IMG/VR virus record: IMGVR_UViG_3300015371_000021
Span: 1 to 64,000 of that record
Direction: 5' to 3' (one strand)
From: a virus
Length of the DNA: 64,000 nt
Shown here: piece after piece, positions 2,005 to 58,521 of the stretch
Position numbering within the stretch: position 1 is the first letter of the stretch
Layout of the letters: every line of letters starts with the position of its first letter
Program-made: the position numbers and the translations under genes
Notes under the pieces: generated by a model
Database searches by the model: none
Seen by the model: the letters and a program-made list of their open reading frames with translations, nothing else
Told to the model about the DNA's origin: nothing

Positions 2005-2606
2005 GGCACGTCCGACGGCGCTGGCGGGACCCCTAGCCCCTCCAAGCCCAAAGATGGGGGCGGGGGCGCCAACGAGTGCACAAACTGTGGCGCAGGCCAA
2101 ATGCTAGGCGCTGCGGCCACCGGTGCCGGCGGTGACGCCGGCGCGGGCTTAACCACGCCCACCGCCTTCTGATAGTTCCCCGGCCAGTCCGCCGGACGCC
2201 GCTTTCCTGGCTTCCACAGCCGCAGGTAATACTCCCATGCCGCGTCCTGCTCGCCGATCGCCGGCAGCGGGTCAGGGTCGCTCCACAGCAGCAGCCGACC
2301 AAATGCGCACGCCACCGGGTCGTGATATTGCAGTGCAGCAAAGGCTGAGGCCACGGGTATGTCGTTGGTGTCCAGCACCTGCCGCGCCAGATGCGGCAGC
2401 TTCTGCATCACCTCCGCCACTCCAATCCGCTCGAATTGCAAGTAGCTCAGCGCCGTGCCTTGTCCCAGCTGCTTACGAGCTGCCCAATTGGTCTCCTGCC
2501 CGGCGATCGCCACCAGCATCACCCGCGCCTCATCGCGCGTCATATACCCCGGCAGCAACGCCAGCCCAGGCTCGACGCAGCGCTCTAGGAAGAGGAGGGG
2601 GGTCAT
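2001..2606 (-). CDS. lysozyme-fold protein, candidate cell-wall hydrolase (201 aa)
   Basis: Residues 30-60 read AIAGQETNWAARKQ followed by SYLQFE. This resembles the transglycosylase/lysozyme pattern of a catalytic Glu (E38) followed by a Gly/Gln-Phe turn. The middle contains a LLLWSDPDPLPA segment and a W..Y..LW.PGKR motif that I associate with a conserved phage family. The last 50 residues are Pro/Ala-rich. No signal peptide is seen. It is coupled by ATGA to the tailspike gene upstream and by GTGA to the gene downstream. It could be the endolysin or a virion-associated muramidase. The fold assignment is inference from motif spacing. Confidence 0.5.
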   Translation of the reverse strand: MTPLLFLERCVEPGLALLPGYMTRDEARVMLVAIAGQETNWAARKQLGQGTALSYLQFERIGVAEVMQKLPHLARQVLDTNDIPVASAFAALQYHDPVACAFGRLLLWSDPDPLPAIGEQDAAWEYYLRLWKPGKRRPADWPGNYQKAVGVVKPAPASPPAPVAAAPSIWPAPQFVHSLAPPPPSLGLEGLGVPPAPSDVP

Positions 2607-3700
2607 AGAGAACCACCGCCAATCACATTACCCGAACCCGTATTGATCACCGGGTTTTTGACATCGCTGTAAACATTGGACTGCACATTGTTCCCCTTGG
2701 ACGTGGCCTGCAGCACCACACCAGCCCGCAAAGTGCTGAAGCTATTACCGGTAATAGCTACCCCAGCCCCCGAATTGCTGTAAACCACGACACCATAAGC
2801 GCGCTCAAGTTCATTGAACCCCGAGAAACAGTTCCCCACGACCGCTCCACGATGCGTCTCGATCAGATTCAGTCCAACCGCCTGTCCAGACTTGGGGCCA
2901 GGAATAAATACTACGTTCCCGCTGAAGGTCAGGTCAGGAATGAAGGTGGCCGTATTGACCGCGGCAACCGTGCAGTTGAATTGCGAGGCACTTATGCTCA
3001 GCTGATCCAGCCCAGTTAAGCCGGCTACAGCATCGACCCCCACCATACAGCCAGTGAAATTCCCAGCAGTGATCGACACCCCCTGAACGTAGTCTCCATA
3101 CTCAACACCAGCGTTCAAGTAATTGAATGTGCAGCCGCTTAGGTTATAGACCACCGGCGGAAGAACCTCACTGCCGCGCACCAACAACCCCGTCCCTTGT
3201 GCCAGGGCGTTGCCGGTCACCATTACGTTGCTCAGATTCACATTCGACACATAATGAAGGTCTATACCGTACGACCAGTAGTTCGCTGCAGCTGGGGCAT
3301 CGGTGCCGCTCACCCACACGTTGCTGATGTCCGATAGCTCAGTATTGCCAGGGTTGGGGATGGCATTGGCGGAATTGAACAGCTTGATAGCCGCGTTGCC
3401 TGTGCCAGTTGCGCCCCCCAGCACGCTGAAGTCCCTCAGGTGCACCGAATGAAACTGATCCGACACGGTAAACCTAAAACCAGCATTGTCAGGGAACTGA
3501 AAGATCGTGTTGCGCACGCCAGCGCCAAACATGTGTAGGCGTCCGGTCCCGGTGATCGGCGCTGTGCAGACGTAGGTTCCAGACGGAACAAGGAGGGTTT
3601 GGTTATCCTTTAGACACACACGGACTGCCGCCTGAATAGCCACTGTATCGTCGGTCGAGCCGTCTCCCCTGGCCCCAAAGTTACCGACCGTGACGCTCAC
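2603..3700 (-). CDS. right-handed beta-helix tailspike, pectate-lyase superfamily (365 aa)
   Basis: The N-terminus carries the classic pectate-lyase/tailspike entry motif, NFGARGDGSTDDTVAIQAA. Then come many short Asn/Val/Gly-rich beta-helix coils (for example LSNVMVTGNAL, VAITGNSF) up to the C-terminus. This fold is typical of phage depolymerase tailspikes that cleave capsule, LPS or exopolysaccharide. GTG at 3700 overlaps the stop of the hydroxylase gene by GTGA and is preferred over an in-frame ATG at 3730. No head-binding domain is visible, so attachment may be through another protein. Substrate cannot be read from sequence. Confidence 0.8.
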   Translation of the reverse strand: MSVTVGNFGARGDGSTDDTVAIQAAVRVCLKDNQTLLVPSGTYVCTAPITGTGRLHMFGAGVRNTIFQFPDNAGFRFTVSDQFHSVHLRDFSVLGGATGTGNAAIKLFNSANAIPNPGNTELSDISNVWVSGTDAPAAANYWSYGIDLHYVSNVNLSNVMVTGNALAQGTGLLVRGSEVLPPVVYNLSGCTFNYLNAGVEYGDYVQGVSITAGNFTGCMVGVDAVAGLTGLDQLSISASQFNCTVAAVNTATFIPDLTFSGNVVFIPGPKSGQAVGLNLIETHRGAVVGNCFSGFNELERAYGVVVYSNSGAGVAITGNSFSTLRAGVVLQATSKGNNVQSNVYSDVKNPVINTGSGNVIGGGSL

Positions 3701-4245
3701 CGCAGCGGCGCCTCGCCCAAAATCCAACACACCAACGACCAGCGCTCGCCCGACGTCACCGGCAAAGCCCGGTGCAGCATCATCGACGAAAACAGCGCCA
3801 TGTCCCCTCGCCTTAATTCCACCCGATCTCCCCCGACCTCCAGCCCGCCGCCTTCATAACTCTCGGGATCGGTCAGCTCGATAGACACGGAAATCTTCCG
3901 CCGGCTCATCGGCCCCGCGCCGATATCCACATGATTGCGATACTCCTGTCCCACGCCATACCGCGTCAGCTGCCCCGACCGGATCGGCTGAATGTCGTAC
4001 CAATACTTGGCATTGTATTCGTCGACGCGGGCGTTGATCCGATCGAACACCCACCCCGCGCCCTGCTCAGCATACAGCCACCGAATGCCGCTGTCCCTGA
4101 TCTGCTCCCCAGTATGGCGGTGCAGCACCGACCGATGCTCCGGCAGCGCCTCTGCCATCTCCAAGATGGCGCGGCATTCCAGCGCGGAAAACGCACCGTG
4201 CGAAACTTCGGAGTAGAAGAACTGATCCCACTCATGCATCAGCAA
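3697..4245 (-). CDS. 2-oxoglutarate/Fe(II)-dependent hydroxylase (PKHD type, 182 aa)
   Basis: The C-terminal double-stranded beta-helix core shows the iron ligands H105-x-D107 and distal H158, plus R168 for 2-oxoglutarate. The spacing and flanks (RKISVSIELTDPESYEGGGL, then LHRALPVTSGERWSL) match prolyl-4-hydroxylase/PKHD-type oxygenases. The target is unknown: a virion protein, a host protein or a nucleotide base. It lies between the tailspike gene (coupled by GTGA) and a membrane protein, inside the leftward late-type operon. ATG at 4245 and ATG at 4239 both overlap the upstream stop; either is possible. Confidence 0.85.
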   Translation of the reverse strand: MLMHEWDQFFYSEVSHGAFSALECRAILEMAEALPEHRSVLHRHTGEQIRDSGIRWLYAEQGAGWVFDRINARVDEYNAKYWYDIQPIRSGQLTRYGVGQEYRNHVDIGAGPMSRRKISVSIELTDPESYEGGGLEVGGDRVELRRGDMALFSSMMLHRALPVTSGERWSLVCWILGEAPLR

Positions 4246-22551: not shown

Positions 22552-22794
22552 CTATTTTATGGGGGGAGGCGGCGCGGCGTTTTTGGCTTGCAGCTCAGCA
22601 AGCTGGCGCTGATCAGACGCAACCTGTGCACGCAGGCGGCTGATCAGGCTGAGTAGCTCGGCGCCGGTGTTGTTGCAGGCGGTGATTTCGTCCTGCGGAG
22701 TCGCGCCGCCACTTTGTGCTGGCTGGGCCTGGACAGCGAAGGGGAGTAGTGCTGTCAAGGCAACGATTACTGTCAGCGAAGCGAGTTTTGCCAC
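22552..22794 (-). CDS. exported small protein, possible outer spanin partner (80 aa)
   Basis: GTG 22794 gives a clean Sec signal (AKLASLTVIVALTALLPFAVQAQ; cleavage after QA near residue 23). The mature part has one Cys, a short coiled coil (LLSLISRLRAQVASDQRQL) and a Pro tail. No lipobox is present, so it is not a typical Rz1. It overlaps the GH5-like gene end by 22 bases. Confidence 0.55.
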   Translation of the reverse strand: MAKLASLTVIVALTALLPFAVQAQPAQSGGATPQDEITACNNTGAELLSLISRLRAQVASDQRQLAELQAKNAAPPPPIK

Positions 22795-24707
22795 GGAATA
22801 CCTCTGGTTGTGTTCAGTCCGAAAATGAGCATAGGACGGCCTGGCGTTGCAACCCTTGGTGTAAACAGCAGCTGCTGCCACCAGGACCATTGGCCGGATT
22901 TGACGCTGTTGTCGGCGTTCAGCGTGCCGTTCGGGTTGGAGCCCGGGCGGTTGCCCCAGACGAACCAGTTGGTCGACATCGGCTGATTACGGCCGGGGAA
23001 GGCTGGCCCACCCGAGGCGACGCCGTTGGCGTAGGAGACGAAGGTGGCCATAAAGTTCGAGTCGTTCGGCAGGTTGCCGTTCGAGCCATCGCAGGAGCAG
23101 CCAACCTCAGAGATGAACACCGGCGCGGTGCCGGCGATCTCCAGATAACCGAAGAAGGTGTTCCAGGCGGAGATGGCTGACGCGCCGTTGTCTGGGGTGA
23201 CGCCCCACACGTTGCTGGGATAGAGGTCGACCGAATAGGCCACCTTGTTTGCTGGCGGTCCGTTGGTGACCCCGCCAACCGGAGACTGCGCGACCCCGGT
23301 GAGGTCCATCAGCCCCGCGCCACTATTCAGCGGCTGGCCGTTGAGCAGGGTGGAGGTGCGGTTAACCGGCCCCGGCACGATCATGATGATGTTCGGGTTG
23401 ACCGCGAAAACCAGGTTGCCGAGTTCCTGTGCAATACACATCCAGTCGGTATCGCCTGAGCCACAGTTCCAGCAAATGCCGGGATTGACCCCGCCGCCTG
23501 GCTTGGCTTGGCCGGTAAATGAGCCGGTCACCAGCGGCCGGTGGTGGATTTGGTAGGCAATCACAGTTGGTTCGATAGTGTACCGCTGCATTAGGGCGAC
23601 GGTGTTGTTTTCCCACTGTACCAGCGTAACGTTGGACCCATTGCCGCAGCCGTCGTCGTTGCCGCTGGAGCCGCCGCTGTCATAGGGCAGGCCGTTAGCT
23701 TGCACCGACCAACACGGGCTGGCGGGCGAAGCAGGCAGCTCATTACCCTGATGTGAGAGGATGACCTTGAGGCCTGCGGCCTTGGCGTTCGCGACGCAGG
23801 CGTCGATCTGAGCGAAGGTATTGCAGCCGGTTGCCGGTAGCGTGCCGCCCGAGGATGGTCCGTTGGCCGGCGGCGCGGCGACAGGACCACTGTAGGTCTG
23901 GGTATTGGGGTCGAAAATGTGCCAGGTGCTGTCGCGAGCGTCGGAGATGTAAACTGTGGTCTGGTTGTAGTAGGCCATTTGGAGAGCGTTGTGACCGATG
24001 TCGCTGAAGTTGCCGAGGCTGACTTCCGCGCCACCAGCCGGGGTCCAAAACGCGTTCAGCTCGGTATCCAGTCGGTAACTGTCCCCGGTGACCGTGGTGA
24101 AGCTCTGACCACCGTTGATAAAGATTGTCGCGATGCCAGGAGTCGAGCCGCCGCTTGGCGGACCAGTGGCAGGTGGGGCGGCGACAGGACCGCCGACGCT
24201 AGGGCCGACTGGGTTGAAGATATGCCACGTGCTGTCGCGGATATCTTGGATGTAGACGGTCGTGTTGTTGTAGTACGCCATCGCGAAGGAGTTGAAACCG
24301 ATATCGCTGATTGAGCCGATCGATTGCTCGCTGCCGCCAGAGGGCGTCCAGAACGCGTTGCCTTCGGTGTCCAGGCGATAGGAATTGCCCTGCACGTCGT
24401 TGAATGACTGGCCGGGGCCGATAAAGGTGGTGGGGATGCCAGGGCCGCCGGTGCCGGCGTTGAGCGCCATGTCGCGCCAAGGAATGACGACGCAGTTGAA
24501 CTGCCCGGTGCTGCGGATTGCCGCCATAGTGCCGTCGTTCGGCGAGCCCAAGAACTGGGTGCATGCCAGCCGCTGCTGATTGCCGGCGCTATCGATAAAC
24601 TGGTTGCCGTTGGTCGACAGGAACCCGCTGGCGAGCGGCGAGCCGGTGATCTGCGCCCACGCGGGCTGCGCCACCAGCAGCAGTAGGAAGGCGAGGAACC
24701 GGATCAT
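22773..24707 (-). CDS. exported GH5-like protein with degenerate active site and duplicated insert (644 aa)
   Basis: Sec signal (residues 1-18, ending PAWA). The GH5 (cellulase-family) frame is readable: NQFIDSAGNQQRL and NCVVIPWRDM at the start, AGLKVILSHQGNE near 315, PTVIAYQIHHRP near 387, then a YSVDLYP strand and VFISE534VG, the nucleophile position. The acid/base site that is normally NE reads H389-R390, so hydrolysis is doubtful and glycan binding more likely. Between the first strand and the barrel two repeats of about 100 residues (90-190, 190-290) are inserted, each ending in a PVAAPPAxGP linker. Two alternative roles: host-surface adhesin or virion lectin. Confidence 0.65.
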   Translation of the reverse strand: MIRFLAFLLLLVAQPAWAQITGSPLASGFLSTNGNQFIDSAGNQQRLACTQFLGSPNDGTMAAIRSTGQFNCVVIPWRDMALNAGTGGPGIPTTFIGPGQSFNDVQGNSYRLDTEGNAFWTPSGGSEQSIGSISDIGFNSFAMAYYNNTTVYIQDIRDSTWHIFNPVGPSVGGPVAAPPATGPPSGGSTPGIATIFINGGQSFTTVTGDSYRLDTELNAFWTPAGGAEVSLGNFSDIGHNALQMAYYNQTTVYISDARDSTWHIFDPNTQTYSGPVAAPPANGPSSGGTLPATGCNTFAQIDACVANAKAAGLKVILSHQGNELPASPASPCWSVQANGLPYDSGGSSGNDDGCGNGSNVTLVQWENNTVALMQRYTIEPTVIAYQIHHRPLVTGSFTGQAKPGGGVNPGICWNCGSGDTDWMCIAQELGNLVFAVNPNIIMIVPGPVNRTSTLLNGQPLNSGAGLMDLTGVAQSPVGGVTNGPPANKVAYSVDLYPSNVWGVTPDNGASAISAWNTFFGYLEIAGTAPVFISEVGCSCDGSNGNLPNDSNFMATFVSYANGVASGGPAFPGRNQPMSTNWFVWGNRPGSNPNGTLNADNSVKSGQWSWWQQLLFTPRVATPGRPMLIFGLNTTRGIPWQNSLR

Positions 24708-26489
24708 TCACACCGGCCGCCGGTAGTTTACTTGAATCGCGGTCGATGCTGGGGTGCCGGTGACGCCAGAAATCACCATCGTCACGTGCTGGCCGCTGTT
24801 GACGGTATTGGCCGCGCTGCAAGTGGACGTCGTGCGGCTTGCGGCTGAGACGACGATGGCGTTGCAGCCGGTTACCGGCGTACCGTTGATCTGAATCGAC
24901 ACGGTAAAGGTGCCACCCGTTGTGTAATAGGTGATGGTGTCGATCGTGCCGGCGCCCCAGGGCCATGTGTCGATGACCGGGATCGTGTCATTGCTGACAG
25001 CAACCGTCGCGCCCCACCAGGCGGTGAGGGTGCTGGTCGTGTTGCCGATGGTCAGCACAGCAGCGCCTGACAAAGCGAGCGGCGCGGTCGCGGTCAGCGT
25101 GCCGCCCGAGGCGCCGGCCAGGCAGGTCGGGCAGGTAAAGTTGCCGGTGCCGTTATTGTAGACCAGCGGTGCGGTGGCGCTGAATCCGGTGAGTGACGCG
25201 TATGGCCCTTGGGTAAAGCCATTGAACCGGCCGAACAGCCCCTGCGTGGTGCACCAGATCATGCCGTTGGTGGGAGATGTCGGCGCGGTGCCTTGCGGGC
25301 AGATCAGGTTGGCGCCAACGCCAGTCGAGGCCGCTGTGGTTAATGTGCCGGAGAAGGTGGCAGCGGCGATCGTGGCGGTGCCGCTGATGACTGGATTGGT
25401 CAGTGTTGCTGTGGGAATGGTCAATGCTGTTGGCAGCGTGGTGGCGAACGCTGGCAGAGAGGCGCCATTGCTGACCAGCACGGCGTTGGGGAGTTGCCCC
25501 AGGCACGTTACCGACGTGCCGGACGCCGCGTAGTAAGCCAGCGCTGGCGCACTGCCGCAGTTGCCGACTGTGCCGCCGCCGCCTGACCCGCCGCCGGGAG
25601 GTGCGCCGCCGTCGATCGCCGTGCCGTTTGCCGAGGTGACGATGGCGTTGCCAGGAACGAAGGTACCGGTTGCGGTGAGCAGGCGCGGGCCGTTGCCTTG
25701 ACCGTTGACGGTGCCGCCGAGCGCCACAACTTGGCCGGCGACGTTGATCTGCAGGTTGGACGGATTGGACAACTGCACCCAGGTGCCGGCGTTGTTGCGA
25801 TAGCTGAAGCATCCAGTACCGGCGCCGGCACCTTCCGAGCCGTTGCGGCAATCGCTGGTCCAGACCCACAGGCTGGCGGCGCCCGAGCCGGGCAGCGCAC
25901 CGATCGTGGTGGACAAGAATGACACCGGCCCGCCGAACGACGTGGTGGCGCCGTTATTGGCGATCTGGAAGGTCGGGCCTGTGCTGGTGATCGAGGGCGC
26001 GGTGATTGCGCCGGTGACGCCAAGGGTTGAGCTTAGCGTGGTGGCGCCCGAGACGCCGAGCGTGCCGGTGATCGTGGTGTTGCCGGACGCTAGAGTCCCG
26101 ACCAGCGTGGTGTTGCCGGTGACGCGGAGCGAGGACAGCGTGGTGAGGCCGGCGGGGATGTTCACCGGCGAGCTGAATGTGGTGACACCGGTGACGGAGA
26201 GGCTGCCGCCGATGATGGTATTGCCGGAGGCCGTGATGGTTGAGGCGACGACTGGGAAGCCCGAGCCGACCAGCGTGCCGAGGGTGAACTTGACCGACTG
26301 GTTCGATCGCGTCGGGCCGACCGCCTGCTGGCCGAGCACAATGTCGTTGATCTGCGGATTGACCCCTTCCGCCTGGCAGGCGGTGGAATTCGGCACCGTG
26401 GTGAGGCAGGCGGGCTGCGAGCGGGCGCTGGCGATCGACGCCAGGATCAGGGCTAGGGTGATGAAGAGGGCAGAGAGGTAGCGTCGCAT
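24708..26489 (-). CDS. exported fibre-like repeat protein (593 aa)
   Basis: N-terminal Sec signal (RRYLSALFITLALILASIASA). Then come many Thr/Gly/Val-rich short beta repeats (TTLSSTLGVTGAITAPSITS) like those in phage fibre shafts, a Gly-rich hinge (GGGSGGGG) near the middle and a compact C-terminal domain with four cysteines. It ends directly before the GH5-like gene. A fibre with a secretion signal is unusual, since tails are built in the cytoplasm. Confidence 0.65.
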   Translation of the reverse strand: MRRYLSALFITLALILASIASARSQPACLTTVPNSTACQAEGVNPQINDIVLGQQAVGPTRSNQSVKFTLGTLVGSGFPVVASTITASGNTIIGGSLSVTGVTTFSSPVNIPAGLTTLSSLRVTGNTTLVGTLASGNTTITGTLGVSGATTLSSTLGVTGAITAPSITSTGPTFQIANNGATTSFGGPVSFLSTTIGALPGSGAASLWVWTSDCRNGSEGAGAGTGCFSYRNNAGTWVQLSNPSNLQINVAGQVVALGGTVNGQGNGPRLLTATGTFVPGNAIVTSANGTAIDGGAPPGGGSGGGGTVGNCGSAPALAYYAASGTSVTCLGQLPNAVLVSNGASLPAFATTLPTALTIPTATLTNPVISGTATIAAATFSGTLTTAASTGVGANLICPQGTAPTSPTNGMIWCTTQGLFGRFNGFTQGPYASLTGFSATAPLVYNNGTGNFTCPTCLAGASGGTLTATAPLALSGAAVLTIGNTTSTLTAWWGATVAVSNDTIPVIDTWPWGAGTIDTITYYTTGGTFTVSIQINGTPVTGCNAIVVSAASRTTSTCSAANTVNSGQHVTMVISGVTGTPASTAIQVNYRRPV

Positions 26490-26621: not shown

Positions 26622-26654
26622 GCGCCGGCCGCGGTAATGGTCGGCGCTTCTTTT
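26622..26654 (+). terminator. hairpin with plus-strand U-rich tail
   Basis: GCGCCGGCC, 8-base loop, GGTCGGCGC, then TTCTTTT on the plus strand. It is oriented to stop rightward readthrough and sits just beyond the 3' end of the leftward 1511-residue gene. The minus-strand side lacks a T-run. Confidence 0.45.
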
Positions 26655-29600
26655 ATGGCGCATGCTCCTGGGCGCGACGGAAACGCTCCTTTACTTCTGG
26701 CGTGCCGGTCTGTTCGATCATCCGCCTAGTCCGCCCTGATATCGTCGGGTTTTGTGTTTGGCGGATGAAGCGCCCGATCTCTCGCGGCTCCATGCCGAGA
26801 CGGCGCAGCTCCACCCAGGCGCCCTCGGTGTCGCCGTTGATGATTTGCTTTCTGATGTCGGGCATCGCCTTTTGCAGCGCGTATTCGTTGCGCTGTCTCT
26901 GGGCAAGGGCCTCGCCCGCGGCCCGCCCGCCCGGCACACCCTGGCTGACCGTGAAGGCCCCGGTCAGCGGGCCCAGCAGCTTCATCGCTGAGACGCCGGG
27001 ATCAGCCTGCGTCTTCTGCCCTAGCGCATACTGCTGGAATAGTTCCTTGCCGCCCTGGAGCATCATCGTCGGCCCCCAGTTGCTGGCCAGGTGCTGGACG
27101 ATGGCGCCAGCGGTATCGAGCCAATCGCCCATGGTTTCTGGGTGCGGCGGTAACTGTGCCCGGCCCAGCGTGTCATAGCCCATGCCTAGTTCAAGGAACG
27201 GACGCACAGGGACCGGCCCGGGCGAGAGCTTGTTCATTAGCATCGGGCCGAAGTGGATTGGCCAATTGATGAACTCCTTGCCGACCTTGCCGGGCGGCAA
27301 GCTCAGGTAAATGCCGCGCCCGTTGCTGTCGACGCCGGCATAGACATGGTCCTGCTTGCCGGGCTCGTTCCAATGCTGCGGCAGCACACCGAAGATGCTG
27401 AGCGGGTTATGCGTGACAGCGTCATGGAGTGAGAAGGCTGCCTGGTCATACCAGTCGTTGAAGACGTTTTGTGCCGTTTCTGGTAGGTTGCTTGCATACG
27501 ACTTCATCTTGGTGACGAGCGGGTCGTCAGACGAACCTCCCACCGGATTGTCGCGCAGCACCTGCAGCCCGGCCTGCACAAGCGCGTTGGCGATGTAGAA
27601 GAAGCCGATGTCCAGCGCGACGGCAGCTCGCGCCTCACGCTTCATATGCTGCTTTGCCGACTTGGCTACATCAGGCCCAGCCATCTCCTCGATCCGGGCG
27701 CGGATATGCGACGGCGCGCCGTTAAACATATCCTTCAGCACGCCAGCGTTGCCCAGCGTGAACGAGCGCGAGAACAGCAGCAGGTTCGCCGCCATGTTGG
27801 CGCCCTTGCTGAGGTGCTCAGGCGGTAGCGCGCCGGCGTAGCGATTGGCAAAGTGCGCCCCTATCGTCGCGGCGACATCGGGAGCGAAACCCTTTTTCTG
27901 AGCCTCTTTCGTCATATGGTTGTAGATGCCGACCTGGAGATCGAAAACCTTGTCCCACAGCAGCCGCTGGTGCACTTGTTCCCAGGCGTGCGGGATAGCC
28001 ATAACCGCACGGCGAAACGCACCCTCAGACACCGGCTCGCGCGCCTCATCAGCAATCGAGGCAAGATCGACCCAACCGCTACGGGCACGGCCAAGTGGGG
28101 CGAGCCCGTGTTGAATTGCCCGATCCATGTAATCGAGGTCCTGCCGTAGTACCCGGCCATCGCGCAGCGCTTGGAGCGTCAGCACGCGCATCGGCATGAC
28201 CGCCAAAGCGCGCCCCATCTCGACGCCTAGATGGATGTAGGGGGAGGCCATAATGACCGACATTAGGCCACTCTTGCCGCTCTGCAGCGTCCTGTACCAC
28301 TGCGGCGACTTCTCGGTGATGACCGCCTTTATGGGTCCTTCAAATCCAACTGGGATGCGGATATCGCGGTAGCCTGTGCCGGTCCATTCGCGAAATGCCG
28401 GATGGTTCGGCATGGTGGTGTAGTCGGCGGGGTTGAGCAGGCCGGGAATATCCCCCCGCACCACTGTCTGCACGCCGGTCTCTTTTCCGACCCTATCGAT
28501 CTTGTCGATCAGATCACGCGCAATGATTGCTCGCTGGATCGAGGATAGGACGTTCGGCAACGCGCGAATGTCACGCACCATCTGCGCCTCAGGCCCGAGC
28601 TTGGCCTGTGCTGCCGCCTCAGTTTCCTCCGGTGTCAGATGCTCACGTCGCATCGGCCCGGCGGTGCTGGACAGATTGCCGCGTTGGTCAATGGTGATCG
28701 ACGCGCCCGTCCCGCCCTGCGGCCGGGTGAAGCCTTGCTCTTCGGACCACATCAACATGCGGCGCGGCATGTAATAGGGCAGACCTTGCGCCTCGGGCGC
28801 CACCATCCCGCGCTCTTGCATCTGATGCCAAAGGTTTTGCGAGATGGCGTCCAGCGCATCGATCATCTGGCGTTGTGGCTCGCTAAGGCCGGTGAGCCCG
28901 GTGTGGCCAGCATCAAACTCGGCGCGCGCCGCATCGCGCATGTCCGGCGGCATCTGCCGCACCTGCTGCTCGAACACAGACTGAGCGTCCATGGCCCGCC
29001 CCATGGCATCACGCTCTTGGCGACCGAACTTGCTTTTGATGCCGCGGTCGATCTCATTGAAGTGGTAGTTGTTCTGCCGCATCAGATTGGCGACGTCGGC
29101 GAGCGATGCTTGAGCGAATGTGTCGCCCTTGCCCATTGGAAAGAGCATGTCGTCGCGGAACGATTTGGCGATTGCGGCCGAGTTGTCTCGGAGACCCCGC
29201 AGGGGCTTTGCCAGCGGGCCGAATGCGCGCTTCCACGCCTCGGGATCGAACAGCGCGCCGGGGAATGAGTAGAGCTGCGCGCCGGGTGACTGGTCCCTGC
29301 GAGCCTCTACCTCCGCCATAAACTGGTCGCGCGTCTTACCCTCAGTCTCGATGCCGTGTTGCGACGCGAGGCGGTCAATTTCGGAATTGGCGAATTTGGC
29401 GCGCTCATAATTGGCGACCGACGCGTCGTCGAGCATCGAGTAGCGCGGCCGATACTTCAGGTCATCGTTCAGCGCGTCGCGAAGATCATTGATCGATGGG
29501 CGCTGATCGCCGAGATCGGGGAAGTAGCCAGCCTCCCAGGCGCGCAGCGCGGCTTCATCCATCGGCAAGCCGGTTTTGCTGATCAGGCCCGGCCGATATT

Positions 29601-31188
29601 TGGCGCCCCCGAGGGTGGAACGGACATCGCCCCCCTCATCGCTTATGCCGCCTTGGCGACGCAGGAATTGCGAAAGCCGTTCCGGCTCCTTGGGAGTTGG
29701 CTCGTAGGGTGTTATCTGCTCTAACGCTGGATTTTCGGCAGATTTGGCAAAATTTTCGGGAGCTTCTGTGGGCGGCGGTTCGCCGAAAGGCGGTTCCTCG
29801 GGGAGCTGGGTTTCGGCTTTCGGTGGGGCGGCTTGCGGCGGGGGCTCCGGCTCCGTCCCAGCCTTACGTTGCAGCGCATCAATCGCGCCTTCTGCCGGCT
29901 CACCAGCGGCGGCCTTCTGCAGATCGGCGACGCCTTCGGCTTCCGGCGCTGCCTCGCGTGCTGCGTTCCGCTCGCGCGCCTGTGCCGCCATCCGATCGAG
30001 CGCGGGGATGCCTGTAGATTGAGCCGCGGGGGGACTTGGCTCTGCAGCAGCCGCGTCCCCCTTTGGAGCGGTGACGTGGACGGTAGGCAGCCCTTGCTCG
30101 ACCTCGGGAACTGCCGCCGTTGGTTCGGCCCGCACCGCAGGACCACGCGCTCCGTGCAGTTCCGGCGCGCCGGTCTGCAGCCAGTCCATCACCTCGCCAA
30201 CGGCTTTCCCCGCGTCTTTGCCGCCAAAGTATTTGGCCGCCTGCGTGGCTGCTTCTGAGCCGGCAGCGATGACGGTATTGATCGCGCCTAGCGGCACGAT
30301 GGGCTGGGTCAGTCCGGCCATGCCATGCTGCGATAGCCACTGGCCAGGTCCCGACTGAGGATTAATCAGCGGTGGCGCCGACGTGTAGCCCTTGGCTGCC
30401 GCCTCATTGACTGCTTCCCCTGCCTCAGCGAGCGCTGCGTGCCGCTGCTGCAATTCCTTTCCGTAGTTGGCCCATGGCATGGATGATGGCGCGGGTGCCG
30501 TGGCGGCATCGTTCGCCAGCTCGCCCTCGGATGGCCCGACGCCGGGCGGTGACTGCGGATGTTCTGCTGAAGTCGGCTGGTCTAGTTCCGCAGGTGGGAG
30601 CCGCCCGGGGCGCGGGTTAAGCCCGAGGTGCTTATAGACCGCGTCGTCGCCGTAGCCGGCCTGGCGTGCTGCCTCGAACTTCGGCCCCCAAGTCTTGGAC
30701 TGGCGTAGGTAGTCGCCGATCTGCTGGTCGTTGAAGCCAGACTTGCGCGCAGTTTCGATCTGCTCACGGATGTTGGGCTGCTGCGGGGCTTCGGCGACCT
30801 GCTCCGGCTCGCGTTCACGCGCTGCTACGCGCCGGGTGTAGTCGGCATGGACCTTCCGTGCGTAGCCCTCGACATCGTCCGTCGCTCTGCCGCCAGGTCC
30901 AGCGTAGTAGGCCATGACCGCAGCCGCTGGGTCCCCGCCAAGTTTATCAGCGTTTTGGCGCAGGTAGCGTGCGGTGCCGTGGATGGCATCCGGCGCCCAG
31001 GTCGGGTTGATACCAAGCTCGCGTGCGGTGCCCGGCATGAACTGGCCGCGCCCTAAGGCTCCGGTTGACGATATCGCGTTGTCGTTGTCACCACCGCTTT
31101 CGACATGGTGCACAGCGCGGATCAGATCGGGGTCGATGCCGTTGGCCCGGCCCGCGTCTTCATAGACGCTGTCGTAAGTCTCGCTCAC
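26653..31188 (-). CDS. giant ejection-type virion protein with N-terminal lytic transglycosylase (1511 aa)
   Basis: Residues 5-110 are a soluble-lytic-transglycosylase domain: LIRAVHHVE30SGG (catalytic Glu), AISSTGALGRGQFMPGT, and MAYYAG. About 350 Pro/Ala/Glu-rich residues follow, then long helical regions with no membrane protein look. Internal virion proteins of podoviruses (T7 gp16 type) use such a domain to open the murein during DNA entry. GTG 31188 overlaps the preceding stop (GTGA). The middle has a GLPYYMPRRM segment I associate with large phage ejection proteins. Function is inferred from domain, size and neighbour. Confidence 0.8.
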   Translation of the reverse strand: MSETYDSVYEDAGRANGIDPDLIRAVHHVESGGDNDNAISSTGALGRGQFMPGTARELGINPTWAPDAIHGTARYLRQNADKLGGDPAAAVMAYYAGPGGRATDDVEGYARKVHADYTRRVAAREREPEQVAEAPQQPNIREQIETARKSGFNDQQIGDYLRQSKTWGPKFEAARQAGYGDDAVYKHLGLNPRPGRLPPAELDQPTSAEHPQSPPGVGPSEGELANDAATAPAPSSMPWANYGKELQQRHAALAEAGEAVNEAAAKGYTSAPPLINPQSGPGQWLSQHGMAGLTQPIVPLGAINTVIAAGSEAATQAAKYFGGKDAGKAVGEVMDWLQTGAPELHGARGPAVRAEPTAAVPEVEQGLPTVHVTAPKGDAAAAEPSPPAAQSTGIPALDRMAAQARERNAAREAAPEAEGVADLQKAAAGEPAEGAIDALQRKAGTEPEPPPQAAPPKAETQLPEEPPFGEPPPTEAPENFAKSAENPALEQITPYEPTPKEPERLSQFLRRQGGISDEGGDVRSTLGGAKYRPGLISKTGLPMDEAALRAWEAGYFPDLGDQRPSINDLRDALNDDLKYRPRYSMLDDASVANYERAKFANSEIDRLASQHGIETEGKTRDQFMAEVEARRDQSPGAQLYSFPGALFDPEAWKRAFGPLAKPLRGLRDNSAAIAKSFRDDMLFPMGKGDTFAQASLADVANLMRQNNYHFNEIDRGIKSKFGRQERDAMGRAMDAQSVFEQQVRQMPPDMRDAARAEFDAGHTGLTGLSEPQRQMIDALDAISQNLWHQMQERGMVAPEAQGLPYYMPRRMLMWSEEQGFTRPQGGTGASITIDQRGNLSSTAGPMRREHLTPEETEAAAQAKLGPEAQMVRDIRALPNVLSSIQRAIIARDLIDKIDRVGKETGVQTVVRGDIPGLLNPADYTTMPNHPAFREWTGTGYRDIRIPVGFEGPIKAVITEKSPQWYRTLQSGKSGLMSVIMASPYIHLGVEMGRALAVMPMRVLTLQALRDGRVLRQDLDYMDRAIQHGLAPLGRARSGWVDLASIADEAREPVSEGAFRRAVMAIPHAWEQVHQRLLWDKVFDLQVGIYNHMTKEAQKKGFAPDVAATIGAHFANRYAGALPPEHLSKGANMAANLLLFSRSFTLGNAGVLKDMFNGAPSHIRARIEEMAGPDVAKSAKQHMKREARAAVALDIGFFYIANALVQAGLQVLRDNPVGGSSDDPLVTKMKSYASNLPETAQNVFNDWYDQAAFSLHDAVTHNPLSIFGVLPQHWNEPGKQDHVYAGVDSNGRGIYLSLPPGKVGKEFINWPIHFGPMLMNKLSPGPVPVRPFLELGMGYDTLGRAQLPPHPETMGDWLDTAGAIVQHLASNWGPTMMLQGGKELFQQYALGQKTQADPGVSAMKLLGPLTGAFTVSQGVPGGRAAGEALAQRQRNEYALQKAMPDIRKQIINGDTEGAWVELRRLGMEPREIGRFIRQTQNPTISGRTRRMIEQTGTPEVKERFRRAQEHAP

Positions 31189-39732: not shown

Positions 39733-40569
39733 CTAGTAAGGGATTATTTCCAGGCGACGTGCCGGCGGCGTTTCCAGGAAGGCCGGTGGAGAGTTTATCA
39801 CCATAGCCGCTATATCGATACGTCCAGGGTTATAAAGCGGCGCCAACGGGTCTCCATAAAGCCGCCGGATTTCGGTGAGTTTTAGCGCACGGTTCCAAAT
39901 TGCGACGTTCGCTATGCCGCCCGCGTGCCAGGCATTCGCCAGGCCGTTGTCTCCGAACCTCAGTGATTGCGTTGGCTGCGTGTTGTTGACCGTAGTGACG
40001 GCGGCGGCGGTGGCCCCTTGCTGGCCATTGACGTAAACCGTGACGTTAGCGCCGTCGAACAAGCCGACCACGTGGTTCCACGCATTCTCGATCATTAAGA
40101 CCGAGCTGTCGCTGGTGCTGAAATGTGCGCCGCCGCTGGCGGAGACCCCGAATTTCGGGGCGCCTGTGACATTGTCGCTGTAGGACAGCGCGAACTGATC
40201 AGACGTCGTGGCGGCGTCGTTTAGAGCGGTGACCGGGAAGCTCCAATGTGCTGGCGCGAAATTCGGCCGCAGCCACACCGATACCGTTATTGCGTTGAGC
40301 GGCAGTTTGACTGAGTAATTTGTGTTTATAGAATTGGTCGAACCATTAGACGGGAAGTTGAGAGTGCGGCCCCACTTGCTGCCACCGCGATTGACGGTGC
40401 CGGTCCAGGTTGCCGATGTCTTGCAGCGGCCACAGGTGTCAACAACTTTGGTGCCAACGTTCTCGTTCAAAGGAAAGAAGTGCAGCAGTCCTTTGGCTAG
40501 ACTGTCATTCCAGTCGATCGTGGCGGCGCCACTATCCTGATGGACTGCAAGTCGGTTTATGTGGTCCAT
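39733..40569 (-). CDS. LamG/concanavalin-like lectin protein (278 aa)
   Basis: Residues 25-220 fit the LamG fold: LLHFFPLNENVGTKVVDTCG, NAITVSVWLRP, NAWNHVVGLFDGANVTVYVNGQ, and GGIANVAIWNRALKLTEIRRL. The last is the typical end of LamG domains. It is probably a tail-tip or decoration lectin that binds cell-surface glycans. No signal peptide. Confidence 0.85.
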   Translation of the reverse strand: MDHINRLAVHQDSGAATIDWNDSLAKGLLHFFPLNENVGTKVVDTCGRCKTSATWTGTVNRGGSKWGRTLNFPSNGSTNSINTNYSVKLPLNAITVSVWLRPNFAPAHWSFPVTALNDAATTSDQFALSYSDNVTGAPKFGVSASGGAHFSTSDSSVLMIENAWNHVVGLFDGANVTVYVNGQQGATAAAVTTVNNTQPTQSLRFGDNGLANAWHAGGIANVAIWNRALKLTEIRRLYGDPLAPLYNPGRIDIAAMVINSPPAFLETPPARRLEIIPY

Positions 40570-43380: not shown

Positions 43381-45437
43381 TAATAACCCCTGCCATCTGC
43401 CGCGACACGATAGCGAAACTTTCCCAGCCGGTTGAAGGAGCCGATGTCGTTGCCCTCCACCAAGATCGCCATCTGACGACCGCGCCCGGCGAACGGCGGG
43501 ATGTACGCCGCGTGCGGCGACCAGGCGAACGGCCCGACGACGCTGTAATCGTCCGACGGTAGGTTGCGAAACAGCAGCGAGATGCGAATTTGCGGCTCGC
43601 CCAAGGTGATGAAGTCCGGAATGAACTGATCGACGAACTCCATGTCCTCGCCCTCGCCGAGGAAGAAGTCCGCGGTCTGCCAGGACCAGGCTATGCCTGT
43701 GCCATTGTCATCGCGCCCAATCTCGTGCTGCAGCATCAGTCCCGACGGATCGGTGCCAAGCGGGATGCCTGGCGCGGAGCCAGCCTGCAGCGTATGGCCG
43801 ACCCAGGCGGTGCGCTGCAGCTGCGGCGAGATCGAGTAATCCCAGGCGTTTTCCACCACGTTGAACTTGACTGAGCCGCGGGTGACGCTGCCCGCAACGT
43901 AGAGGTCTGACGCAGGGTCGATCGGAAAGAACAGCTCGAATTCGTTGTAGGTCGCGTTGACGCCCATGTGAAACAGGCCGGGTTGGTTGAGGTCCCAGTT
44001 GTTGTAGAGGATGTCCCAGACCGAGCACGGCACCGGCTGCGGCGCGCCGCCAGCGATGCTCATCATGTAGAAGCCATGCGGCGATAGCCAGAACACGACC
44101 TGTCCGAGCACCGCAAAGCAGCGCATGCCGAGCAGCCCGCAACGCTGCGCGATCGGCTGAAATCCAAACACGAACGGCAGGCCCATATAGGTCATCGACC
44201 AGGCGCCAAGATCAGTCCAGAGGATGGCACCGAGGCCGGTGGGAAGGCCGCCAACCAGGCGGTTGCCTTGCGGGATGGTAAACGAGCCGGCCTGATTGAA
44301 CTCGGTCGGCACCCAGTCGGTGTAGTCGCCGTTGGTCGACCAGCGCACCAGCATCGGCTGCTGCTGGCCAAACACTTCGGCGCCCAGCGCCACCACCATC
44401 CGGGCCTGCGACATGACGAAGACCGCGGTATTCGCGGTCGGCGCGTCGGGAGAGACAATGGCGGCCGGCACGATGGCCGGTGGGGTCCACTGATAAATTC
44501 CACCGCCGCTCGGGCTGGCGATTAGCACCGCGCCCCAGTTGGTCAGCGACCACTGCCGCATCGGTTGGATCGCCTGCTCGGACGCGAGCGACCCACCATA
44601 GTCTCCGGCGCCGTAGTCGCCGCCGCCATAACCAGAGAGCGCGGTGTCCTGCGCAAAGCCGGTCTGCAGCAGGTAGCGAATTTGCGCCGCACCGCCGTTG
44701 AGCGGCACGGTGGCGCCGCCAGAGGCGGTGTCAGTAACGCTGATGGTAAAGTGCGAACTGTCCGGCACAGTCTCCACGGCATAGAGCCCTTCGACTGTCA
44801 CTCCGGAGAACGTGGTCGGGACCACCGCATTATAGGGCGAGCCGACGGCAAGACCGTGTTGCGGGAATTCCACCGTGATCACCGCGCTGCCGCCGGTCGA
44901 CGTGTAGGTCGGCACCACCCCGCCCGACGTGGTAAACGTCGCGGGTGTCGCTGCCTCGACGGTGTATTCCGTGCCGCCGCCGGCACCCGATACCTGGTAG
45001 ATACCAAACAGGATCAGCCCGTCGATCGAGACCGGTGTGGCGATGCTGATCCAGTCGCCAATCTGCGGCGCGTGGTCCGGGTCATCGATGGTGACCGCGG
45101 TGGACCCACCCTGCGTCGAGAAGGCCGGCAGCGGATTGGTGGTCGCCTGTAAGGGCGTAATGTCATCGATCACGCCGCCGGTGAACACTTCCAGCCGCTG
45201 CTCAGTACCGGCGACGATGTAGGAGTTGCCCTTGAGATCATCGAAGGCATGCAGCCCGCTACAGGTGCCGATCAGACGTTCGGCGGTCAGTTGCTGCCAC
45301 CCGCCACGCTTTTCCGGCAGACCCGAACGGAACCGGATTAGCCGAGATGTATTCAGCTTGGTCTGGTTAGTCGTCGGGGTGTTCTGGACGTCGACCCCTG
45401 GCTCCAGGGTGAGGTCACGGTAAGCCACGGGTGTCAC
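43380..45437 (-). CDS. tail nozzle protein, T7 gp12/P22 gp10-like (685 aa)
   Basis: The start LNTSRLIRFRSGLPEKRGGWQQLT, followed by LHAFDDLKGNSYIVAGTEQRLEVF, is typical of the beta-propeller-bearing nozzle or DNA-stabilising tail proteins of short-tailed phages. Residues about 95-260 are an inserted pair of FCCH-like beta domains (TAVTIDDPDHAPQIGDWISI; AVITVEFPQHGLAVGSPYN). WSTNGDYTDWVPTEFN and WLSPHGFYMM strands follow. GTG start at 45437. It would close the tail channel below the adaptors. Confidence 0.75.
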   Translation of the reverse strand: MTPVAYRDLTLEPGVDVQNTPTTNQTKLNTSRLIRFRSGLPEKRGGWQQLTAERLIGTCSGLHAFDDLKGNSYIVAGTEQRLEVFTGGVIDDITPLQATTNPLPAFSTQGGSTAVTIDDPDHAPQIGDWISIATPVSIDGLILFGIYQVSGAGGGTEYTVEAATPATFTTSGGVVPTYTSTGGSAVITVEFPQHGLAVGSPYNAVVPTTFSGVTVEGLYAVETVPDSSHFTISVTDTASGGATVPLNGGAAQIRYLLQTGFAQDTALSGYGGGDYGAGDYGGSLASEQAIQPMRQWSLTNWGAVLIASPSGGGIYQWTPPAIVPAAIVSPDAPTANTAVFVMSQARMVVALGAEVFGQQQPMLVRWSTNGDYTDWVPTEFNQAGSFTIPQGNRLVGGLPTGLGAILWTDLGAWSMTYMGLPFVFGFQPIAQRCGLLGMRCFAVLGQVVFWLSPHGFYMMSIAGGAPQPVPCSVWDILYNNWDLNQPGLFHMGVNATYNEFELFFPIDPASDLYVAGSVTRGSVKFNVVENAWDYSISPQLQRTAWVGHTLQAGSAPGIPLGTDPSGLMLQHEIGRDDNGTGIAWSWQTADFFLGEGEDMEFVDQFIPDFITLGEPQIRISLLFRNLPSDDYSVVGPFAWSPHAAYIPPFAGRGRQMAILVEGNDIGSFNRLGKFRYRVAADGRGY

Positions 45438-47202
45438 CTGCCGTCGCGGCCTTCAGTTCATCCAGCTCACGCATGACGTGTTGCAGTGCAGCAGTTAGGT
45501 AGGCGACGTCGTGCGCATAGTCGCGCGTCAGGCGATAGCCGCCCGCTACAGTGCCGTCGCTCTCGGCGTATTCGGGGCGCGCGTCCGGCACCGGCACCAG
45601 CGCGGCGCCGCGTCCGTTGATCCATTCCTCTTGGGCGATAAAGCCCGAGGAGTCCTTGCCGCCCTTCCAGGTAAAGGTGACCGGCCTGGCACGGTCGATC
45701 CACTCGCGCGCTCGCGCGGGGGAGATGGTTTCGATGGCTTCCTTGGCGCGGGCATCAGACGTGGTGAAGAAACCCTGGCCGACATAGGAGTTCGATGCGT
45801 TGCAACCGATCGCGACCGGACCCCATGCGCCTGGCGTGGTCGCAACGGATGGTTGGATGACGTAGCAGCCGTTGCCACTGATCGCGGCTGCGCCGCCGAG
45901 AGAGACCAGGCCACTAACATTGAGGGTAGTGCTGACCGATACACTCCCGGTCACGGCGAGGGTCGTCAGGAAGGCCCCGGACGCATTGAGTATGTGCGCG
46001 CCGCTGCCCGCATTGATCGTCGGCGCGGTGACAGTTGGAGCGGTGAGCAAATTCCCCGAGACCGTGCCGGACGCAGTGAGCGATGGGGCGGTGATTGCCG
46101 GGGCGGTGAGGTCCGTCGCGGTGAGCGTAATGCCGCCCGAGGTGTTGACGGTGAACCCGGCGCCCCCGCCGCCATGGTACTGTATATACTGACCGGAGGC
46201 GAAGTTGAGCTGCTGATTACCCGACGCGTTCGGCTCGGCGTAGAACTGCGCACCGGTGCCGAAATTCGTTCGACCGTTGACGGTCAGGTTGCCGGTAATG
46301 GTCTGGCTGCCGTTGACCGTGCCACCCGAATTGGTGGCGGCTGAGCCGGTGATGTTGATCGCGTAAGTGCCGCCGTCGTTCAACACCGGCTGCGCGCCGG
46401 AGACTGTCAGGCCGCCATTACACGCCGTCGTACCGCCCACGATAAGCGCGCCGCCGATCGATGTTCCGGCGTGGGTACCGTCGATCGACACCGCGCCGGT
46501 GCTCATGTTCCAAGAGAACGGCCGGAGACTGTCCCACGACCCGAACGGTTGGCCAGCCGCCGTCTGCATGAAGAACGTGGAGGAGCCGTCGTTATGGATG
46601 AACATGGCGCGCCCGCCACCGATGGCGCGGAATTGAGCGCCGCCTTGGTCGGTGCCCTGTGCGGTGATGCCACCTGACGCGGAGAACATGCCGCCACCCG
46701 AGGCGATAGCCCCGCCGGCGGAGATGTTCGCGGTGACGTTTGCGCTGCCGCCGACGGTCAGATCGCCGGTCGTGGTTTGTCCGCCGACGCCGACGTTCAG
46801 CGACGAGACATTGGTGAAGCCGTCGGTCCAGTAGAGATACCAGAGATTGTCGTTGGGCACGGTCAGCGTTGTCCCGCCGCCAGCAGTCAGGGTCAGTATC
46901 TGCCCACCGGTGGTCGCGTTCCGCACGTAGCCGATTTTCTGCACGTTCGGCATGTGAATATTGCAGGCGCTCGCCAACGTGCCGATGAAAGTCTTCATCC
47001 GATAGCGCCGCTCGTCGGGCACACCATTGCCAACGGTGAGCGTGTAATCGAGCCGGTTGGAGATATCGATTGTCACGAGCCCGTCGAGCGACTGGTCCTC
47101 CAAGGTCGCGTTGGTGCTGTTCGGCGCGCCCCAGGAATTGCGAATCGACGGATCGAACGGCTGCAGCACCGCAAAGCCGTTCGACTGGGTATACGTAGTC
47201 AT
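45415..47202 (-). CDS. tail fibre/spike with C-terminal S74 chaperone domain (595 aa)
   Basis: A short head part, then a long Thr/Gly/Val beta shaft (GGSANVTANISAGGAIASGG) and a C-terminal intramolecular chaperone: FFTTS482DARAK487EAIETI, RPVTFTWKG, SGFIAQE, then DYAHDVAYLTAALQHVMRE. In this family Ser and Lys make the protein cut itself before the Ser once the trimer has folded, releasing the last 114 residues. A receptor-binding fibre is likely. Confidence 0.8.
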   Translation of the reverse strand: MTTYTQSNGFAVLQPFDPSIRNSWGAPNSTNATLEDQSLDGLVTIDISNRLDYTLTVGNGVPDERRYRMKTFIGTLASACNIHMPNVQKIGYVRNATTGGQILTLTAGGGTTLTVPNDNLWYLYWTDGFTNVSSLNVGVGGQTTTGDLTVGGSANVTANISAGGAIASGGGMFSASGGITAQGTDQGGAQFRAIGGGRAMFIHNDGSSTFFMQTAAGQPFGSWDSLRPFSWNMSTGAVSIDGTHAGTSIGGALIVGGTTACNGGLTVSGAQPVLNDGGTYAINITGSAATNSGGTVNGSQTITGNLTVNGRTNFGTGAQFYAEPNASGNQQLNFASGQYIQYHGGGGAGFTVNTSGGITLTATDLTAPAITAPSLTASGTVSGNLLTAPTVTAPTINAGSGAHILNASGAFLTTLAVTGSVSVSTTLNVSGLVSLGGAAAISGNGCYVIQPSVATTPGAWGPVAIGCNASNSYVGQGFFTTSDARAKEAIETISPARAREWIDRARPVTFTWKGGKDSSGFIAQEEWINGRGAALVPVPDARPEYAESDGTVAGGYRLTRDYAHDVAYLTAALQHVMRELDELKAATAGDTRGLP

Positions 47203-47924: not shown

Positions 47925-48122
47925 TCAACGCGCCCGCCAGCCGATTGTCGTCGGACGCACCTGACTGCCGATGTTGAACCCCTGAGTGAATGCGTCGCGC
48001 TTAAACCCGCCAGCCGCACCTCCGCCGGCACCGATCGCGCCCTCTGACCGCCGCGCGCGCCAGGGCAGCAGAAACGCCAACAAAAGTGCGCCTAGCGAAC
48101 GGCGACTAAGTAACGCTCTCAT
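47925..48122 (-). CDS. small exported protein with RR-type signal (65 aa)
   Basis: ATG 48122 overlaps the previous stop (ATGA). The start has S6-R7-R8-S-L-G, a near-exact twin-arginine motif (S/T-R-R-x-F/L-x), followed by the hydrophobic ALLLAFLLPW and a possible processing site before AIGAGG. The remaining 35 residues are Gly-rich and polar. It may be a Tat substrate or a membrane-anchored virion protein. Confidence 0.6.
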   Translation of the reverse strand: MRALLSRRSLGALLLAFLLPWRARRSEGAIGAGGGAAGGFKRDAFTQGFNIGSQVRPTTIGWRAR

Positions 48123-50854: not shown

Positions 50855-51471
50855 CACGAGATCACCGGTAGGTATTGCGTATTGTCTGGGTCGGAGAAAT
50901 CCAACTGCCCTTGCTGCCCACCCGGAGGCACCGGCGTCGTTCCAGGTCCCGCGTCGACCATGATCGGGACGCCCTGATCGTCGGTGATGATGTTGCCCTG
51001 ATCGTCGGTGAGATACGCGAACAGCTCAGCCGGCGGTGGTGGCGGGGGTGGTGGTGGCGCCGCCTGTCCCCGGTCAAGCATGATCGGCTTGCCGAGATCA
51101 TCGGTGATGACGTTCCCCAGGTCGTCGGTCAGGAAGTCAAACAGCGGTTCGACGAACGGCGGCACCGCCTCGAATGGCTCGAATGGGAAGAACGGCGGCG
51201 GCGCGGGGCCTGCCTGCTGCGTCACATAACCAGGGCGCGGGTGCTTCAGTGGCCGCGGATCAGGCGGGATGACGATCGGTCGTAGGTGATGGTGCGGCCG
51301 GTCCTCACAGGTCCCGCACACCAGAATGCGCAGATTAGCCAATTGCGGGCCGCGAAAGTCGTGCTGCCAGCGCAGATCACCGAGCCAATAGCGATGGTTG
51401 CAGCGGTCGCAGTAGCCGATCGGCTGCGGCTTATTGAGGTCAGCATAGTTGCGGGTGAGGCCCTTACCCAT
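50854..51471 (-). CDS. zinc-ribbon virion-region protein (205 aa)
   Basis: GKGLTRNYADLNKPQPIGYCDRC, then ILVCGTC, is a conserved start of a phage protein family that lies among head-tail genes; the four Cys can bind zinc. A Pro-rich linker leads to two copies of LTDDxGNxITDDxGxPIM. ATG 51471 overlaps the previous gene by eight bases. Confidence 0.7.
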   Translation of the reverse strand: MGKGLTRNYADLNKPQPIGYCDRCNHRYWLGDLRWQHDFRGPQLANLRILVCGTCEDRPHHHLRPIVIPPDPRPLKHPRPGYVTQQAGPAPPPFFPFEPFEAVPPFVEPLFDFLTDDLGNVITDDLGKPIMLDRGQAAPPPPPPPPPAELFAYLTDDQGNIITDDQGVPIMVDAGPGTTPVPPGGQQGQLDFSDPDNTQYLPVIS

Positions 51472-57150: not shown

Positions 57151-58521
57151 ATGATCAGCGTTCTGCACGGTGACTGCCGCGATCTGCTGCCGACGATGGA
57201 GGCGGACACCTTCGACGCTATCGTAACTGATCCGCCCTACCATCTAAACAGCATTGTTAAGCGGTTTGGCAGTACCACTAGCGAAACGCCTGGAAAGGTA
57301 GTTGAACGAATTAACGCCCGAGCAGACGGCTATGCCCGTGTTGCTCGTGGCTTCATGGGTAAACAATGGGACGGTGGCGACGTAGCCTTCCGTCCCGAGA
57401 CATGGGCCGAGGTGTTTCGTGTTCTTAAGCCCGGCGGCTATCTCGTAGCATGCGGTGGCACACGCACGTATCACCGCATGGTCTGCGCAATTGAGGACGC
57501 CGGTTTCATAATCCACCCAATGCTGGTCTGGGCCTTTGGGCAGGGATTCCCGAAAGCTACGAATTTGTCAAAAATGTTCGACCGAGTGGCTGGTGCTGAG
57601 CGGGAAGTTGTTGGGCAGCGTGATCGCTACCTAGACGGCAAAGTTCGGAAGAACTTGGGGCCAGCCAATAATTGGCATGGTGGTGCGACATTCAGCACGA
57701 ATGGTGTTGCCGATATAACCGCCCCAGCCACGCCAGAGGCCCAGCAATGGGACGGCTGGTTCTACGGGGGTCAGGCGCTTAAGCCGAGCTTGGAGCCAAT
57801 TTGCGTAGCACAGCGTCGGCCTGAGGGCCGTATGGTTGATAATGTGCGGAAGTATGGTACTGGGGCGATCAACATTGCGGCGTGTCGGGTTGCTGCGCCC
57901 GATGCCCCAGAGGAAGCACGAATCAGCCATGGCGCCGGTAGTCGCTATGTTGGTGTGCTGAACGGCGGCGCTGTCAGCGAAGCCGAGCCGCGCACAACCA
58001 CCGCAAGCCAAGCCGGCCGTTGGCCGCCTAATTTATTGCACGACGGCAGCAAGGAACTGGAAGCGGCGTTCGCGGCGTTTGGGGAGAGGCCCGGCGCTGT
58101 TAGCAACGGGCGCAAAACTGGCGGCGACGAATATTTCAGCGGCAAAGGTCCGCAGCCGCAGACTCCCGGACGTGCCGACTCCGGTAGCGCATCCCGATTC
58201 TTCCAACGCTGCGAGTTCACGCCCGACGAATTGCGTATGTTCTACTCGCCTAAGGCTGGTGGCGCAGATCGTGCCGACAGCAAGCACCCCACAATCAAGC
58301 CTGTGTCGCTACTGCGCTGGTTGGTGCGGCTGATCACGCCGCCCGGCGGCCACATACTAGATCCATTCGCCGGCAGCGGCACGACCGCCGAGGCAGCCAT
58401 GCTCGAAGGTTTCGGCTGCACGCTGATCGAGCGTGAGGCTGAGCATGTCGCTGACATTCAGCATCGCATAAAGCGCTGGCGTGGCGATGACATGCCGCTA
58501 TTCACTGCCGAAGGCTTATGA
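57151..58521 (+). CDS. DNA methyltransferase, N6-adenine/N4-cytosine type (456 aa)
   Basis: Catalytic motif D27-P-P-Y30 comes first and the AdoMet-binding D404-PFAGSGTT412 last, the beta-class order. HPTIKPVSLLRWLVRL comes before it. About 180 residues between the motifs hold the target-recognition region. Such phage enzymes protect the genome from host restriction or mark it. No restriction nuclease is beside it, so it is an orphan methyltransferase. Confidence 0.9.
   Translation: MISVLHGDCRDLLPTMEADTFDAIVTDPPYHLNSIVKRFGSTTSETPGKVVERINARADGYARVARGFMGKQWDGGDVAFRPETWAEVFRVLKPGGYLVACGGTRTYHRMVCAIEDAGFIIHPMLVWAFGQGFPKATNLSKMFDRVAGAEREVVGQRDRYLDGKVRKNLGPANNWHGGATFSTNGVADITAPATPEAQQWDGWFYGGQALKPSLEPICVAQRRPEGRMVDNVRKYGTGAINIAACRVAAPDAPEEARISHGAGSRYVGVLNGGAVSEAEPRTTTASQAGRWPPNLLHDGSKELEAAFAAFGERPGAVSNGRKTGGDEYFSGKGPQPQTPGRADSGSASRFFQRCEFTPDELRMFYSPKAGGADRADSKHPTIKPVSLLRWLVRLITPPGGHILDPFAGSGTTAEAAMLEGFGCTLIEREAEHVADIQHRIKRWRGDDMPLFTAEGL

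Follow-up and report, generated by a model that had tools for sequence, protein, structure and literature searches.

The GH5 proteins of phages have been known so far as active cellulases, tied to host cellulose as a receptor. Erwinia phage S6, for which the cellulose of the host is the first receptor, encodes such an active enzyme, the GH5 cellulase gp95 (PMC9544554). Both S6 gp95 and gp75 of Henunavirus SNUABM_01 are encoded near late structural genes with a GH48 gene as neighbour, have the full set of catalytic residues and N-terminal accessory domains, and carry no signal peptide. Loss of catalytic residues within GH5 has been described in bacteria, in subfamily GH5_30 and in a Xanthomonas subgroup arising from GH5_1; in turn, Rsi24C-GH5, from the RsgI24C protein of C. 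thermocellum, has lost the acid/base residue, and still binds crystalline cellulose (PMC3526467). The bacterial non-catalytic modules are set in other architectures (anti-sigma sensor, expansin fusion).

The protein described in this work unites a phage gene with a largely dismantled GH5 site. It is encoded in a virus record of 72,189 bases (72 kb; IMGVR_UViG_3300015371_000021), the first 64,000 nucleotides of which constitute the window analysed. The gene resides, as those of S6 gp95 and SNUABM_01 gp75, near late structural genes. Yet, identity to these enzymes is about 25%, the catalytic site is incomplete, and the Ig-type domains preceding GH5 in S6 gp95 are missing. A GH48 search gave no match on the record, but this absence shows little, since the control genomes were likewise without a match. 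Lost catalytic residues are the feature shared with RsgI24C, GH5_30 and the Xanthomonas GH5_1 subgroup, a likeness drawn by description and not by sequence. The change from enzyme to binder is itself known from bacteria; what is new in the collections searched is the setting in a phage, together with the architecture. Literature searches for depolymerases of phages that have become pseudoenzymes, and for signal peptides on phage proteins, brought up nothing close. The features of the locus are the following.

22773-24707, minus strand: GH5-like protein of 644 aa, intact open reading frame, with Pfam Cellulase, phmmer and Foldseek matches
24654-24707, minus strand: Sec signal peptide pattern, residues 1-18 (MIRFLAFLLLLVAQPAWA), from the sequence pattern and a heuristic scan
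24450-24629, minus strand: residues 27-86, N-terminal hairpin made of barrel strands beta1 and beta2, from alignments and model
24486-24488: V74, replacing the Arg of beta2, from alignments
24150-24428, minus strand: first module of the insert (residues 94-186), sharing 68% identity with module 2, missing in the sister phage
23847-24128, minus strand: insert module 2, residues 194-287, 68% identical to module 1, all-beta in the model
22848-23837, minus strand: residues 291-620, remainder of the barrel from alpha2 through beta8, from phmmer alignment and model
23538-23543, minus strand: His389-Arg390 at the Asn-Glu (acid/base) position, R390 being CGG at 23538-23540, from alignments
23106-23108, minus strand: Glu534, at the nucleophile position, from alignments
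24708-26489, minus strand: fibre-like protein of 593 aa, starting with a signal peptide pattern, stop codon directly adjoining the GH5-like start; the sister protein is 62% identical

The relation of the 644-aa protein to GH5 is beyond chance. The Pfam Cellulase (GH5) model matches at 5e-5, with 23.4 bits against a curated cut-off of 23.5, hence 0.1 bit below it. A phmmer search among sequences of solved structures matches endocellulase E1 of Acidothermus (1ECE; 6.5e-11) and, at 1.5e-9, CelE2 (8FC0), an endoglucanase of GH5. An AlphaFold model made from nine sequences shows a barrel of moderate confidence (mean pLDDT 60, pTM 0.59), most barrel strands and helices scoring 70-90; beta2 is placed at residues 72-77, alpha2 at 298-310, beta4 at 382-386 and beta7 at 530-535. 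Searched with Foldseek, the model ranks GH5_1-type endoglucanases on top (8FC0 2.7e-16, 1ECE 4.6e-14). By sequence and by fold, the protein is a homologue of GH5 barrels, and the GH5_1 endoglucanases are its nearest relatives. The earlier note, which had read GH5 barrel motifs from the letters and proposed structure prediction and comparison with GH5 enzymes, is borne out on this point.

Signal pattern and genomic neighbourhood

The N-terminus carries a signal pattern of textbook type (Arg, hydrophobic core, AWA site), recognized by heuristic scan, and a hydrophobic leader is likewise present in the sister ortholog described below. The GH5 hairpin begins soon after the signal pattern, and no virion-anchor domain is therefore apparent. 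The gene lies at the end of the structural genes, between the fibre-like gene, the product of which has a short match to cyanophage fibre proteins, and lysis-type genes. The latter are small, encode signal-like or membrane segments, and resemble spanin or holin genes by appearance only.

According to one view, the protein could be a virion part, a tail-borne receptor-binding protein following the pattern of S6 gp95, with a hydrophobic N-terminus not meant for export. The location next to the fibre-like gene at the end of the structural genes, where S6-type phage GH5s also reside, would fit, but the signal pattern directly precedes the GH5 hairpin, nothing resembles the anchor provided by the N-terminal Ig-type domains of S6 gp95, and phage tails are assembled in the cytoplasm. 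We regard a virion location as unlikely.

In the same heuristic scan, signal peptide patterns were found at the start of a 912-aa protein (48119-50857, minus strand) and of the 593-aa protein, both fibre-like, besides the GH5-like protein, and the patterns are conserved in the sister (L021:1495-4287, L004:5983-7785 and L004:7796-9781). The portal protein is related to portals of phages of Pelagibacter, Roseobacter, Caulobacter and others; several late proteins examined in two phages with related portals have no such N-termini. Assembly of virion proteins takes place in the cytoplasm, which makes signal patterns on fibre-like proteins puzzling.

Other genes on the record deserve mention. Candidate receptor binders are a tail fibre with a gp34-type trimerisation domain and an S74 chaperone (45415-47202, minus strand), and a LamG-type lectin-like protein (39733-40569, minus strand). 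A 1511-aa protein of internal-virion or lytic tail type (26653-31188, minus strand), which carries an N-terminal SLT transglycosylase domain (2.9e-11), is 63% identical to its sister counterpart. A tailspike-type protein of 375 aa (2603-3730, minus strand), pectate-lyase-like by its PF12708 match (1.1e-13), has no counterpart in the sister contig by matching, and could have taken over depolymerase work in this phage. A DNA methyltransferase gene (57151-58521, plus strand; PHROG 67, 3.2e-55) lies on the strand opposite to the surrounding late genes.

The catalytic site

Nine canonical GH5 loci were retrieved from viral contigs using the Erwinia phage enzymes as query, and the seven distinct ones were aligned with the GH5-like protein and its sister ortholog. 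The signature positions of GH5 are, in E1 numbering, R62, H116, N161, E162, H238, Y240, E282 and W319. In the phmmer alignment H160-N161-E162-P of E1 corresponds to H388-H389-R390-P391, and E282 to E534; an independent profile, built from the GH5 domains of eight canonical phage enzymes, likewise pairs HHRP with HNEP. The eight signature residues, among them the Asn-Glu pair and the nucleophile Glu, are present in every one of the seven aligned canonical enzymes. Five of the eight are replaced in the GH5-like protein: the Arg of beta2 by V74, the His of beta3 by Q320, the Asn by H389, the acid/base Glu (E162 of E1) by R390, and the His of beta6 by D494. Retained are Y496 in beta6, E534 at the nucleophile position after beta7, and W584 in beta8; leaving aside the Asn and the two Glu positions, three of the remaining five are thus replaced. 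In the model, R390 lies directly past beta4 and E534 at the end of beta7. The earlier note had reported that Glu534 is kept and that the usual Asn-Glu pair reads His389-Arg390. Both observations hold, though the extent of the loss had been understated.

Read from the alignments, the GH5 catalytic site is largely dismantled. The barrel, the nucleophile Glu, the Tyr and the Trp are common to E1, CelE2 and the phage protein, which differs from the two endo-beta-1,4-glucanases in having lost the acid/base Glu and four further signature residues, and in having gained two modules in the beta2-alpha2 loop. An incomplete catalytic machinery is what defines non-catalytic GH5s of the GH5_30 and Rsi24C type (PMC3526467), and on its aligned residues the phage protein would fall among them.

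Retention of E534, Y496 and W584 leaves some room for a protein which is still an enzyme but works by a changed mechanism, E534 acting as nucleophile along with a surrogate acid, or on an activated substrate needing no acid. Myrosinase, a GH1 enzyme, works in the latter manner. For a surrogate acid, the sequence points first to E323, a residue of the beta3 loop that is conserved in both orthologs, and the GH5 survey leaves room for alternate mechanisms in proteins of this kind (PMC3526467). Yet, the Arg, both His and the Asn serving the nucleophile and the -1 subsite have been replaced as well, and the change of the acid into Arg is a strong change of charge. A changed mechanism seems to us decidedly improbable.

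The sister ortholog and the duplicated insert

The fibre-like neighbour gene led to a sister contig, IMGVR_UViG_3300005563_000004, which carries an ortholog of 661 aa (L004:7796-9781) in the same genomic place. The two phages are alike in gene order and signal pattern, and the orthologs are 68% identical over residues 290-620, the main GH5 part. In the sister, V takes the place of the Arg of beta2, R that of the His of beta3, H that of the Asn and D that of the His of beta6; the same four positions are therefore replaced in both proteins. In contrast, the acid/base Glu is kept in the sister (HHEP, codon GAG), and is Arg in the protein under study (HHRP, codon CGG). Two bases differ between the codons, which argues against a single base-calling error. 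Scans of the viral_contigs and genome_contigs collections, in which the full protein, the insert, sub-region alignments, two neighbouring genes and canonical phage GH5s were used as queries, yielded no close GH5 relative beyond the one contig, along with a second sister contig ending short of the gene and the nine canonical phage GH5 loci. Such scans rely on exact short peptide matches, and more distant orthologs may be missed.

Replacement of four further signature residues in the sister suggests that most of the site probably changed before the acid/base Glu. At least six of the seven canonical enzymes agree in 121 alignment columns; both orthologs have lost 64 of these, and only 10 differ between the two in what is kept. 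Relative-rate counts with seven outgroups revealed no excess in the lineage of the GH5-like protein (chi-square at most 2.3). Over the GH5 part we obtained a dN of about 0.27 and a dS, near saturation, of about 1.38. The ratio dN/dS is about 0.2, far below one; together with the lack of a rate excess, this indicates that the protein has been maintained despite the broken site. In the simplest reading of these comparisons, most catalytic positions would have been altered in a common ancestor, selection would have continued, and the acid/base Glu would have been lost later in this lineage. Hence, even if the record is metagenomic and the comparison involves one ortholog only, an error of sequencing or assembly in the Arg codon, or decay of the gene into a pseudogene, is very hard to believe, given the two-base codon difference, the frame intact over 644 codons, the four replacements common to both phages, the low dN/dS and the relative rates.

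The orthologs differ also in their accessory modules. Two similar domains inserted after the first barrel strands had been noticed earlier, and are confirmed at residues 94-186 and 194-287, past beta2. Each module is about 94 aa long and is followed by a Pro/Gly-rich stretch. The model places the insert in the beta2-alpha2 loop; in the sister, the beta2 loop continues directly into the CNTFAQID helix. The beta2-alpha2 loop is on the active-site face in GH5 barrels, and the modules would consequently sit at the rim of the cleft. A single module modelled alone forms eight strands, is all-beta, and has a pLDDT of 74.6. No significant relatives of the module were found by structure or sequence, and searches of plasmids and phages for the origin of the insert, in part run with a module consensus, gave no match. 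The fold search returned non-significant matches only, which included mannose-type lectins and, at TMt 0.66 and E 0.55, a two-blade fragment of the Pizza beta-propeller (5chb), and no fold name was assigned. With no relative found for the insert, the role given to it below is a guess. The sister has in turn an additional C-terminal module of about 190-200 residues, where the GH5-like protein has a short tail.

L004:9056-9781, sister contig: C-terminal module, related to phrog_10080 (match at 1.7e-7)

Accessory modules seem to have been exchanged between the orthologs.

Proposed role

The residue losses, the signal pattern and the purifying selection give good support to the view that an enzyme has changed in the direction of a non-catalytic protein which is exported. 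To this extent the proposal of the earlier note, that an enzyme became an exported glycan-binding protein, stands; its glycan-binding part would follow from fold, precedent and added modules. In the account that we consider probable, this phage protein descends from a GH5_1-type endo-beta-1,4-glucanase and is now a GH5 pseudoenzyme that is exported and binds a glucan-like polysaccharide of the host or of the matrix. The product would no longer be a retaining glycosidase. The gene, preceded by the fibre-like gene and followed by those of lysis type, is probably expressed late, and its product would be exported through Sec, to act outside the cytoplasm. Binding of the polysaccharide would probably involve the barrel cleft, where Glu534, Tyr496 and Trp584 are still in place, as well as the pair of beta modules on its edge. 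Conservation of the nucleophile Glu speaks against such a binder, which need not keep this residue.

A broader scenario can be imagined, in which the phage lineage exports fibre-like proteins along with the GH5 pseudoenzyme via the host Sec system, and these glycan-binders act on the surface of the infected cell or in the matrix before lysis, and not on the virion. We hold it to be a long shot. If true, the pre-lysis surface or matrix proteins may mask receptors, or free the progeny from the matrix. The dismantled site, and a sister in which the acid/base Glu is still in place, provide a natural series to follow when a depolymerase becomes a pure glycan binder, and the signal patterns on the GH5-like and the two fibre-like proteins raise the question of phage proteins acting outside the infected cell.
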